NCBI RefSeq assembly: GCF_900093605.1
Contig: NZ_FLYE01000044.1
Location: 119,097 to 183,096, forward strand
DNA: 64,000 nucleotides
Direction: 5' to 3'
Source of the DNA: Candidatus Terasakiella magnetica
GTDB taxonomy: Bacteria; Pseudomonadota; Alphaproteobacteria; Rhodospirillales; Terasakiellaceae
Shown here: positions 26,590 through 30,205 of the stretch, piece by piece
Layout: each line of letters opens with the position of its first letter
How positions within the stretch are numbered: position 1 is the stretch's first letter
The notes under the pieces: generated by a model
What the model saw: only the letters and a program-made list of their open reading frames with translations
The model's database searches: none
Told to the model about the DNA's origin: nothing
Position numbers and translations under genes: made by a program

Positions 26590-26650
26590 CTTATTGAAAG
26601 TTGCATAAGTTTCTGTAAGATGCTTTTTTACGGACTTTGTAAAAGGGTAG

Positions 26651-27460
26651 ATGATGCGTTTTTTCATTTTAATGATGGTTGGTTTTGTCGTGACGGCCTG
26701 TCAGCCGCAAACTTTGCGCATGGTTCATGCCCCGCCACTTGTTGCTGAAAACCCCCAACAAATTCGTCCTTTGGCCATGCGCGCAGAAAGTTATTCTAAA
26801 GCTCATGGCGCGCCGATGAATCTTTCAAAATATGATTTTTTCACCGCCAATAGTTTTGGGCGCAACTGGTTAAAACAGCGCAATCACAAAGTCATTACCA
26901 TCGGTCACCCAAAAGACTGCGCCACCTTTAACGGACGCTGGCGCCATGGTAATCTTTTTGAAGCCATGGAAAGGTCCATGAACCAATGTTTAAACCGGGT
27001 GAAAGTCTTTTCTGAAATTACAGGTAAGAAATGCGGCTGTCGTTATGCTGCAATCAATAATGCAATTTTGATGAAGCCAGAAGAATTGCCCTTTCGGGTA
27101 AATGTGCCTGCAATTGCATTGGTGAAAGACGCCAAAGGCAGAAAAGAAATTCTTGGCTATGCCTCTACAACCGGGCGCACAGGTAAAAATCAGGCGATGA
27201 ATTTTCATACCTCATCTGGGCGCAAAGTCTGTGACGGGCATTATAATATTGGCACCATTGCCTTTAAAGGCGATGCCTATCTCAATTGTTTTGATGGGCG
27301 TATCAAAGGGCCAGCCGTTTTTAAAGTCCATGGTTTTCGCGAAGGGATTTCCTATGGCACAGCCTTGGTGAATGCAGGTGAAAACAAGTTGATTTTGGTT
27401 TATGGTTTACCCACAAAAGAATTTGAAAAACGTCGATCTGAATTGTTGGGTGAATGGTAA
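26651..27460 (+). CDS. Unknown lipoprotein coupled to the caspase-like gene
   Basis: I do not recognise the family. The N-terminal signal ends in the lipobox VTAC, predicting lipid-anchored Cys17 (ATG 26651) and an outer-membrane or inner-membrane location. The mature part contains a cysteine cluster (KKCGCRYAAI), RVNVPAIALVKD, a segment like YASTTGRTGKNQ, and a Gly-rich end. Its last seven bases overlap the start of the caspase-like gene, which implies coupled translation and stoichiometric expression. Its role may be as partner or substrate of that protease (inference only). Confidence 0.75.
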   Translation: MMRFFILMMVGFVVTACQPQTLRMVHAPPLVAENPQQIRPLAMRAESYSKAHGAPMNLSKYDFFTANSFGRNWLKQRNHKVITIGHPKDCATFNGRWRHGNLFEAMERSMNQCLNRVKVFSEITGKKCGCRYAAINNAILMKPEELPFRVNVPAIALVKDAKGRKEILGYASTTGRTGKNQAMNFHTSSGRKVCDGHYNIGTIAFKGDAYLNCFDGRIKGPAVFKVHGFREGISYGTALVNAGENKLILVYGLPTKEFEKRRSELLGEW

Positions 27461-28476
27461 AATACGCACTTATATTGGCAGGCCTTCTGTGCCTTGGCTC
27501 ACCCCCCGCTTTTGCCCAAACCAGTTTTATGGACCTCTGGTGTGAATATGGGGGCAAAGGATGTGTGGAACAGCCCAAAGGTCTAAAACCCGCAGCCCAG
27601 CCCGCACAGAAACTGCCTAGCGTGGTAAAACCCGTTCAGGCGCGCCCTGTTCCCAAACCAGTTGCCAAACCACAACGCGTAAGCACGCCGTTGATTAAAA
27701 GAAATGCCTCGCTTGCCCAGTCAAAAGGGGTCAAGTTTGGGCGCTATTACGCATTGGTTATTGGCAATAATAAATATCCTCATATGGATAATTTAAAAAC
27801 GGCTGTGGGTGATGCCAAGGAAGTTGCGCGCGTACTGAAACAGTCTTACGGCTTTTCTGTCACATCCCTGATTAATGCCACGCGCGATCAAATTATTGCC
27901 TCGCTGGATGAATATCGCAAAGTCTTGCGCAAAGAAGATAACCTGCTGATTTATTATGCTGGTCATGGCTGGCTGGATAAAGAAAGTGAGCGCGGCTATT
28001 GGCTGCCTGTGGATGCGGCTAAAGATACCCGCGCGCGCTGGGTGTCAAACGCCGATATTACTGATACGCTTAAAGCCTTAAAAGCGCGCCATGTGATGGT
28101 GGTGGCTGATAGCTGTTATGCAGGCACTTTGACCCGTTCAGCCGAGGGTGGGCTTGGGCAAACGCGCGGGCTTAAACTGACAGAACGTCCCGCAGGTTAC
28201 CTTGAAACCTTGGTTGGGCGCAAATCGCGCACTGTGCTGGCCTCTGGCGCATTAGAGCCTGTGAGTGACCAAGGCGGGGGGAAACATTCTGTCTTTGCCT
28301 ATGCCTTTTTGAAAAGCCTGCAAAGCAACAAAGGCATGATTGATGGCACGCAGCTTTTTGGTAATGTGCGCCAGCAGGTTTTGTTAAATGCGCGCCAGAC
28401 CCCGCAATATTCCAACATCCGTTTTGCAGGCCATGATGTGGGTGGGGATTTCGTTTTCTTGCGAAGAGACCGATAA
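27454..28476 (+). CDS. Exported caspase-like (C14) cysteine protease domain protein
   Basis: The signal peptide ends SPPAFA (residues 1-21), followed by a Pro/Lys-rich linker to about residue 85. A peptidase C14 (p20-like) domain then begins RYYALVIGNNKYPHMDNL. The catalytic dyad is His171 (YYAGHGW) and Cys221 (ADSCYAGT), both intact. Bacterial caspase-like proteins include arginine/lysine-specific metacaspase relatives and periplasmic forms of unknown role. Export suggests an envelope function rather than cytosolic cell death. It overlaps the upstream lipoprotein gene by seven bases; msrB follows after 32 bases. Confidence 0.9.
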   Translation: MVKYALILAGLLCLGSPPAFAQTSFMDLWCEYGGKGCVEQPKGLKPAAQPAQKLPSVVKPVQARPVPKPVAKPQRVSTPLIKRNASLAQSKGVKFGRYYALVIGNNKYPHMDNLKTAVGDAKEVARVLKQSYGFSVTSLINATRDQIIASLDEYRKVLRKEDNLLIYYAGHGWLDKESERGYWLPVDAAKDTRARWVSNADITDTLKALKARHVMVVADSCYAGTLTRSAEGGLGQTRGLKLTERPAGYLETLVGRKSRTVLASGALEPVSDQGGGKHSVFAYAFLKSLQSNKGMIDGTQLFGNVRQQVLLNARQTPQYSNIRFAGHDVGGDFVFLRRDR

Positions 28477-28909: not shown

Positions 28910-30205
28910 GTGGCCTCCATCTGGGCCTTGGCCTTACCCATCATTCTTTCCAACATCACCATCCCTTTGTTGGGTGCGGTGGATGCGGCTGTTATGGGCC
29001 ATATGGAAAGTGCGGCCTATTTAGGCGCGGTGGCTATTGGCGGCTTGATCTTTGATTATATCTACTGGGGTTTTGGTTTTTTACGCCTCAGCACAACCGG
29101 GCTTGCCGCCCAAGCCATGGGGGCAGGGGATGGCGCAGCAGCGCGTGCGGTTATGGGGCGTGCAACGCTTATTGCCCTTGTCGGGGCCATGGTCTTATGG
29201 CTTGTGCAGGGCTATATTTTTCAAGCCGCAGCCTTTGTGATTGAGGCTAGTGATGAAGTGGAAGTACTGGCCCAAACCTATTTTGAAATCCGCATTTGGT
29301 CTGCACCTGCGGCCTTGATGAATTATGCACTTATGGGCTGGATACTGGCTTGTAAGGATACAAAAGGCGTGCTGATCCAGCAGGTGATCACCAATGTGGT
29401 TAATGTGGTGCTGGATTTATGGTTTGTGATGGGGCTGGGCTATGGCGTTGAAGGGGTGGCTGTGGCAACTGTGATCGCCCAATATTGCGGCCTTGGCATT
29501 GGGCTTTTGGTTTTGCGCAAAAATATGGCACGCCATGAGGGGCAATGGGAGCGTGCGCGCATTTTCCAGCTTGATAAAATCAAGCAACTTTTATCCATGA
29601 ATATGGACCTGTTTATTCGCACTGTCTGCCTGCTCAGTGCTTTTGCTTGGTTTACGGCCCAAGGGGCCAAGCTTGGCGATGTGGTCTTGGCGGCAAATGC
29701 AATATTGCTCCAGTTTCAGCAATTTACGTCTTATGCGCTGGATGGGTTTGCCCATGCGGTTGAGGTATTAAGTGCCCATAGCGTTGGGGCAAAAAAGCGC
29801 GATGAGTTTAAGAAAAATGTAAAAGCCTCCACTCAATTGGCCTTTGTTTTTGCCGCTGGTTTTTCACTTATTTACATTTTGTTTGATAGCCAGTTTATTG
29901 CCTTTTTCACCGATATCGAAGAGGTGTTGGTCATGGCGCAGGATTATATATTCTGGGTTGCTCTTTTGCCGTTGGTCTCGGTTTGGAGTTTTCAACTTGA
30001 CGGGATTTATTTTGGCCTGACCCAAACTAGAATATTGCGAAATATGATGGTGGTTTCCCTTGTTTTTTATATCCCGTTGAGCCTGTGGATGATGCAAACA
30101 TATAATAATCACGGGTTATGGGCGGCGTTAACAATTTTTATGGGATTGCGCGCTATAACATTGGGAATAACCTTTCCAAAAGTTAGTCAAAGAGCTTTTC
30201 AATGA
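28910..30205 (+). CDS. MATE family efflux transporter (DinF-like)
   Basis: Multidrug and toxin extrusion family; 431 residues with about twelve membrane helices, cation-coupled export. The N-terminal helix reads LALPIILSNITIPLLGAVDAAVMGH, the usual MATE opening, and both six-helix halves are present. The only start is GTG 28910, because an in-frame stop lies six codons upstream, so translation probably depends on msrB five bases away. DinF-like members export oxidised compounds, which would suit an msrB neighbour, but the substrate is unknown. Confidence 0.9.
   Translation: MASIWALALPIILSNITIPLLGAVDAAVMGHMESAAYLGAVAIGGLIFDYIYWGFGFLRLSTTGLAAQAMGAGDGAAARAVMGRATLIALVGAMVLWLVQGYIFQAAAFVIEASDEVEVLAQTYFEIRIWSAPAALMNYALMGWILACKDTKGVLIQQVITNVVNVVLDLWFVMGLGYGVEGVAVATVIAQYCGLGIGLLVLRKNMARHEGQWERARIFQLDKIKQLLSMNMDLFIRTVCLLSAFAWFTAQGAKLGDVVLAANAILLQFQQFTSYALDGFAHAVEVLSAHSVGAKKRDEFKKNVKASTQLAFVFAAGFSLIYILFDSQFIAFFTDIEEVLVMAQDYIFWVALLPLVSVWSFQLDGIYFGLTQTRILRNMMVVSLVFYIPLSLWMMQTYNNHGLWAALTIFMGLRAITLGITFPKVSQRAFQ

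Follow-up and report, generated by a model that had tools for sequence, protein, structure and literature searches.

A lipoprotein gene paired with an exported caspase-like protease in Terasakiella, and a candidate N-terminal tag that may dock the protease in the envelope

Why does a predicted exported caspase-like protease of Candidatus Terasakiella magnetica share overlapping reading frames with a lipoprotein that belongs to no described family? We addressed this question in a window of 64,000 nucleotides (the whole stretch of DNA that was analyzed). A preliminary description of this DNA had proposed a joint role of both proteins in the envelope, with the lipoprotein, here called X, as an anchor, an inhibitor, or a substrate of the protease. 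Our reading is that the two genes encode a co-translated pair in which X would dock a short tag of a probably Arg/Lys-specific protease and hold it in the envelope, with release at a PLI[KT]R motif as a further possibility; we give this reading a probability of roughly 45%. The locus comprises the following elements:

26594..26621, forward strand: weak sigma-70-like promoter match upstream of X (9 of 12).
26651..27460, forward strand: X, a lipoprotein gene without a described family (open reading frame of 269 aa, stop codon TAA at 27458-27460).
27454..27460, forward strand: 7-base overlap of X and the C14 gene (reading-frame coordinates).
27454..28476, forward strand: predicted exported C14 caspase-like protease (340 aa, ATG at 27454, PF00656 match with E 1.2e-28).

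The overlap of 7 bases, on which the idea of coupling had been built, was confirmed from these coordinates. X and the caspase are both present in all six Terasakiella genomes (the window's own counted), where their genes are adjacent and on one strand. They overlap by 7, 4, 4, and 4 bases in four of these genomes; depending on the chosen start, the fifth has a 1-base overlap or an 11-base gap and the sixth a 17- or 23-base gap. The exact overlap thus varies among Terasakiella, and it is the close spacing that is kept, not the overlap itself. In the window the pair is flanked by mutY and msrB-MATE-mltC, and the order mutY-X-C14-msrB-MATE-mltC is the same in the five Terasakiella relatives. Of the suggested envelope-stress set of msrB, the MATE exporter, and the lytic transglycosylase, the gene order therefore stood as conserved, and a shared stress function found no support. 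The genes for the MATE exporter and the MltC-type lytic transglycosylase also overlap (4 bases, window 30202-30205), which shows that genes of this block are often tightly spaced. X diverges faster than the caspase within Terasakiella, with identities to the window protein of 40-68% for X against 72-84% for the caspase. The promoter match before X is not significant, since the region holds four sigma-70-like matches and shuffled sequences average 2.9.

The protease was then read by regions:

27517..27564, forward strand: mature N-terminal tag QTSFMDLWCEYGGKGC, whose two Cys are residues 9 and 16 when Q is residue 1.
27565..27687, forward strand: variable Pro-rich linker, residues 38-78 (22.8% mean pairwise identity).
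27688..27708, forward strand: PLI[KT]R[ND]A motif, residues 79-85 (identity of 86.7%, with variable sequence on either side).
27736..28467, forward strand: caspase (p20-like) domain, residues 95-338 (profile match, alignment, and model).
27964-27966, forward strand: H171, invariant in 6/6 Terasakiella.
28114-28116, forward strand: C221, invariant in 6/6 Terasakiella.

Its assignment to C14 held, with residues 99-321 matching Peptidase_C14 (PF00656) at 100.8 bits (cut-off 21.4), and His171 and Cys221 are intact as had been reported. In an alignment of 45 caspases (40 of 48 caspase domain stretches plus five Terasakiella sequences), the catalytic positions hold His in 43 and Cys in 40. The start of the protein is signal-peptide-like, with a cut placed by eye between AFA and QTS, in agreement with the earlier claim of export. 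The structural model (mean pLDDT 83.5) is of low-to-middling confidence to about residue 80 and confident thereafter except for a loop at about 230-241; its best Foldseek matches are a metacaspase (E 5e-12) and MALT1, and MALT1 is also matched by sequence (E 2.8e-9). In the match to MALT1, D120 falls on an Asp; D219 lies two residues before C221, and each of these columns holds Asp in 44 of the 45 aligned caspases; by analogy with MALT1, we take both as candidate acidic pocket residues. Judged by the active site and this candidate pocket, the enzyme probably cuts after Arg or Lys. According to the review PMC5756287, those C14 members that have been characterised, caspases aside, prefer Arg/Lys, and orthocaspases made in E. 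coli process themselves. At the PLI[KT]R column, Arg is found in 5 of the 45 aligned caspases, all five being those of Terasakiella, and R83 of this motif is a possible self-cleavage site, the cut being predicted after R83. Elsewhere in the window's genome, a second gene exceeds the Peptidase_C14 cut-off (G000:C47:118073-118807, in a 624-codon frame), and a weaker protein-level C14 match lies at G000:C22:224922-225344 (439-codon frame, E 7.8e-5).

The start of the mature protease behaves differently from its surroundings. Among the six Terasakiella genomes, residues 21-37 reach a mean pairwise identity of 94.5%, compared with 83% for the caspase domain and 16% for the signal peptide. Because residues 21-37 are nearly identical and the signal peptide and linker stand at around 20%, this stretch is constrained apart from the fold. 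Its consensus is QT[ST]FMDLWCEYGGK[GE]C, and the protease starts after the predicted cut as AQTSFMDLWCEYGGKGC. A search of the window's genome with the pattern WC...GC matched the caspase only, a reversed control also giving one match.

X was characterized through its signal and its predicted fold:

26690..26701, forward strand: lipobox V-T-A-C17 of X (lipobox-like Cys in 6/6 Terasakiella).
27089..27409, forward strand: C-terminal beta-barrel-like domain of X, residues 147-253 (AlphaFold2 model).

The VTAC lipobox of the preliminary description is present, and X has the marks of a bacterial lipoprotein, a lipobox Cys after a hydrophobic signal, with processing predicted. Lipoprotein sorting, by the rule from E. 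coli, depends on the residue after the lipobox Cys; in X this residue is Q in five of the six Terasakiella. We consider that X is lipid-anchored in Terasakiella, the membrane probably being the outer one. Apart from the lipobox Cys, six cysteines (C90, C113, C128, C130, C194, and C213) are invariant in 12/12 aligned relatives. X also remains unrecognised: Pfam, NCBIfam, and PADLOC gave no match at E<=1, a family match was likewise absent at E<=10, and its relatives returned only insignificant single-member family matches at E<=10. Against PDB chains, the best sequence match has an E of 0.47. The model of X, built from five sequences (mean pLDDT 79.2), combines a C-terminal barrel with a small alpha/beta part; Foldseek found no PDB match for X, and a fold search of viral libraries found none either, both at E<=0.001. 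The barrel aligns best with small designed beta barrels (Z 8.7, rmsd 3.3, 97 aligned).

We then considered how far X and its neighbors extend beyond Terasakiella. With X alone as query, a scan of genome contigs found no relative. The genus profile detected X in 8/199 genomes of the order, namely the six Terasakiella, G068, and, for the C-terminal part, G107, and in 6/385 genomes of the class, where a wider profile yielded 8/385, one of them weak. The G107 match (L036:1228-1875) is a short lipoprotein-like protein with only the C-terminal domain of X. In f96, another alphaproteobacterial family, X was found over most of the profile in 62/75 genomes and a second gene, its partner, in the same 62. 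Profile comparison (hhalign) of f96 X with Terasakiella X gave 98.7% with an E of 4.2e-16 over 178 columns, which argues firmly for homology. The partner lies on the same contig and strand in 62 of 63 f96 X loci, with 1-47 bases between the matches in 61 of those 62; at the sole locus without it, only 30 bases of contig follow X. These counts leave out one 30-position partner fragment (G627) and six partial X matches (G643:C50, G629:C11, G614:C236, G627:C212, G631:C566, and G625:C147), so that G625 is counted as lacking X. Such partial matches, seen in several f96 genomes, resemble that of G107. The joint absence of X and partner from 13/75 f96 genomes may partly reflect loss, or assembly gaps hitting both.

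Three further X genes stand in other surroundings. By names read by eye, the next gene is hldE-like in G068 and sulfate adenylyltransferase-like in G505; in G254 it is a DUF1499 gene. Within 13-14 kb round X in these three genomes, neither the caspase nor the partner profile matched at E<=0.01. Conversely, X was found in 0 of 48 non-Terasakiella caspase loci (E<=1). The expectation that the lipoprotein family always neighbors a C14 gene thus holds in all six Terasakiella and fails elsewhere, including f96, G068, G254, and G505. Since X is not bound to caspases, the occurrence of the lipoprotein without a caspase neighbor, which the preliminary description had set against its own proposal, was half borne out. 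X as a caspase-specific partner has to be given up, as f96 relatives adjoin a non-C14 exported protein (62/75) and the three solitary genes lack a caspase; a caspase-bound lipoprotein family is rejected, X relatives adjoining other genes. That X might descend from the anchoring part of a caspase that once anchored itself stays no more than a thought: X is absent from the 48 loci, although about half of 50 related caspase reading frames contain a lipobox-like Cys.

The solitary genes also bear on whether X might be a substrate, cut by the caspase after a conserved Arg (R149 of LPFR, R164, R176, or R261-R262). These Arg are invariant in the six Terasakiella sequences, and the Arg/Lys preference stated for non-caspase C14 members in the accessible text of PMC5756287 would suit such cuts. 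The R149 column, however, is also Arg in G068 and G254, where X has no adjoining caspase match, and this explanation leaves the tag of the protease unexplained. We regard it as very unlikely.

The f96 partner has a signal-peptide-like start. PG_binding_1 is matched at E<=1 by eight of the 11 members that were aligned, with a best E of 2.4e-7; the match of the first member, at E 8.9e-4, does not reach Pfam's cut-off. None of the 11 scanned members matched a C14 model, and no Pfam protease family was matched by the 11; the partners are homologous to one another in the C-terminal part. X in f96 mostly has a plain signal peptide without a lipobox in the loci read (VMAC in G647 could be one), so anchoring cannot be the general role of the X family. 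These observations weigh on the alternative in which X would inhibit or activate the caspase through the tag or the active site. Tight gene spacing is usual for regulator-enzyme pairs, and that of X and the caspase would fit; such a role would also work with a soluble X and has a precedent in LbcA-CtpA, as far as the accessible account of that system goes. Against it stands an f96 partner that matches a peptidoglycan-binding family and no protease family, which makes a pure protease inhibitor unlikely. Regulation of the caspase by X, in either sense, seems to us rather unlikely.

What the two kinds of partner have in common is their start. After the predicted cut, f96 partners begin as in AQSAGEVERCFQNPAGC (an example from genus g151) or AQTAPELECVWKGTC (an example from g249), followed by a Pro- or Gly-rich linker. 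Both partner kinds begin with AQ[ST]..., followed by two Cys with a spacing of 5-6 residues and by a Pro-rich linker. In g151, the main f96 genus, 30 loci were fetched, one of which ends 30 bases after X; Q...CX6C is found at the partner start in all 29 with downstream sequence, the Cys lying at 9 and 16 from Q in 28, just as in Terasakiella, and at 10 and 17 in one. Among other f96 partners, CX6C occurs in G646 and CX5C in G382, G647, and G649; the partner of G648 is matched from profile position 61 onward, which places the tag region outside the match.

Two controls were used to gauge this pattern. CX6C within the first 26 mature residues was found in 17/119 SPI-like proteins, all 17 being X partners; the loci behind this set had themselves been selected for X or a caspase. 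CX5-6C was found in 1/78 exported-type proteins of 400-kb samples of G003 and G263, that is, one Terasakiella and one f96 genome. The one match is a very Cys/Pro-rich Terasakiella protein with NPCAAK/NPCA repeats (L186:16281-17117). The exported-protein finder is crude, since from 14 partner loci it returned 13 exported-type proteins and detected 7 tags. A narrower signature, CFQNPxxC, was rejected: it occurs in 6/385 genomes, and only three of the matches are X partners. In the remaining three (G253, G486, and G407) the motif is preceded in its frame by <=16 residues, and a signal peptide is absent. When the surroundings of the solitary X genes were scanned loosely for the tag, a single match came up, an L074 frame about 5 kb from X that lacks a signal peptide by eye.

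Alternatively, X and the caspase could merely be neighbors in a housekeeping cluster without interacting, the tag serving folding, peptidoglycan, or another receptor and X having a ligand of its own. The existence of X relatives without a tagged neighbor and the conservation also of mutY, msrB, MATE, and mltC beside the pair would be expected in that case. A tagged exported protein nevertheless lies directly after X in two lineages that differ in flanking genes and partner domains, and we find mere proximity unlikely. The docking reading meets difficulties too: 13-14 kb around the X relatives of G068, G254, and G505 contain neither a partner match nor a caspase match, and the tag rule is post hoc. 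The pattern was noticed after the fact, it is common to Terasakiella and f96 tags without a clear alignment between them, and it amounts to about two independent cases because the second family counts as one lineage.

Under the docking reading, which we prefer, the argument starts from export signals, catalytic residues, a conserved pairing, a conserved tag, and same-pattern starts in other X partners, all read from sequence. The earlier claim that the pair works together in the envelope gains support from the 6/6 synteny in Terasakiella and from the family rule elsewhere. Anchor, inhibitor, and substrate are indistinguishable by sequence, and among them an anchoring or docking role appears to fit best. 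X and the caspase would be made as a co-translated envelope pair, X being a lipid-anchored docking or control protein and the caspase an exported soluble protein with its mature N-terminal tag on a Pro-rich tether. X would bind the tag of the protein encoded next to it; since Terasakiella X is predicted to be lipid-anchored and the caspase soluble, this binding would place the protease at the membrane and hold it in the envelope. The protease may then free itself by cutting at PLI[KT]R, the tag being left behind. In f96, where X mostly lacks a lipobox, X would be a soluble partner. What we infer here are the recognition of the tag by X, the disulfides, the cleavage specificity, the release step, and the process that the pair serves.

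A wider, tentative possibility is that X belongs to a modular docking system of the alphaproteobacterial envelope. X-family receptors, exported or lipid-anchored, would bind short N-terminal Cys-pair tags. Each receptor would go with a single tagged exported protein, and the working domain of that protein would differ by lineage (caspase-like, peptidoglycan-binding, or unnamed); the Terasakiella caspase would be held on a leash that it can cut itself. The distant X relatives beside other secreted proteins with a similar Cys start hint at such a reusable way of holding proteins in the envelope. Among the open-access papers listed, we found no earlier description. For a bacterial caspase homologue outside the cytoplasm, the locus supplies a fixed, testable partner together with predictions of where it docks and where it is released, and this in a genus whose named species include sequenced ones. 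Should the tag rule hold, it would give access to a protein family so far undescribed and to the way in which alphaproteobacterial envelopes hold exported proteins.

Several known systems resemble parts of this locus. The protease shares with orthocaspases and prokaryotic metacaspases the C14 domain, the His-Cys dyad, and the candidate acidic pocket residues. From the accessible texts, orthocaspases are those without a p10 domain and metacaspases those with one (PMC6426788), and likely export signals have already been reported in some members (PMC3501461). The Terasakiella form differs from orthocaspases in being short and in its conserved mature N-terminal tag, Pro-rich linker, and coupled lipoprotein gene; 47 of 50 related caspase reading frames (in 47 loci) exceed 450 aa. 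A lipobox-like Cys of their own is found in 24/50 of these frames under a strict rule and 28/50 under a relaxed one, which makes attachment to the membrane a recurrent feature of the wider family. Many gammaproteobacterial caspase relatives (L090-L110 and others) are lipoprotein-like and have a common N-terminal VDCLLPGQ-R-LG stretch. In two Thermoanaerobaculia genomes, C14 genes stand in tandem with a 4-base overlap, stop codon counted (L111:4867-8393 and L114:4870-8519), and the first gene of each tandem begins serine/threonine-kinase-like by eye.

Bacterial gasdermin pairs also place a membrane-acting partner beside a caspase-like protease, and these pairs act in the cytoplasm. X differs from them in its lipobox signal peptide and in having no significant match in Pfam, NCBIfam, or PADLOC; a gasdermin-type or defence pair found no support from these libraries on the side of X. 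TbpB-type surface lipoproteins are similar in that their barrels can be superposed on the C-terminal barrel of lipoprotein X (106 aligned, rmsd 3.2, Z at best 7.8, in the range of a common arrangement), and the likeness of the modeled X barrel to small barrels and TbpB may reflect only such an arrangement. The fold of LbcA from Pseudomonas aeruginosa consists of helical repeats. The protein is called spiral-shaped in the accessible account, a shape that the model of X, with its alpha/beta part and beta barrel, does not have, and the protease of that pair is of a different family. According to the same account, LbcA is an outer-membrane lipoprotein that partners and activates the periplasmic protease CtpA, and the likeness to X would lie in a lipoprotein serving an envelope protease.
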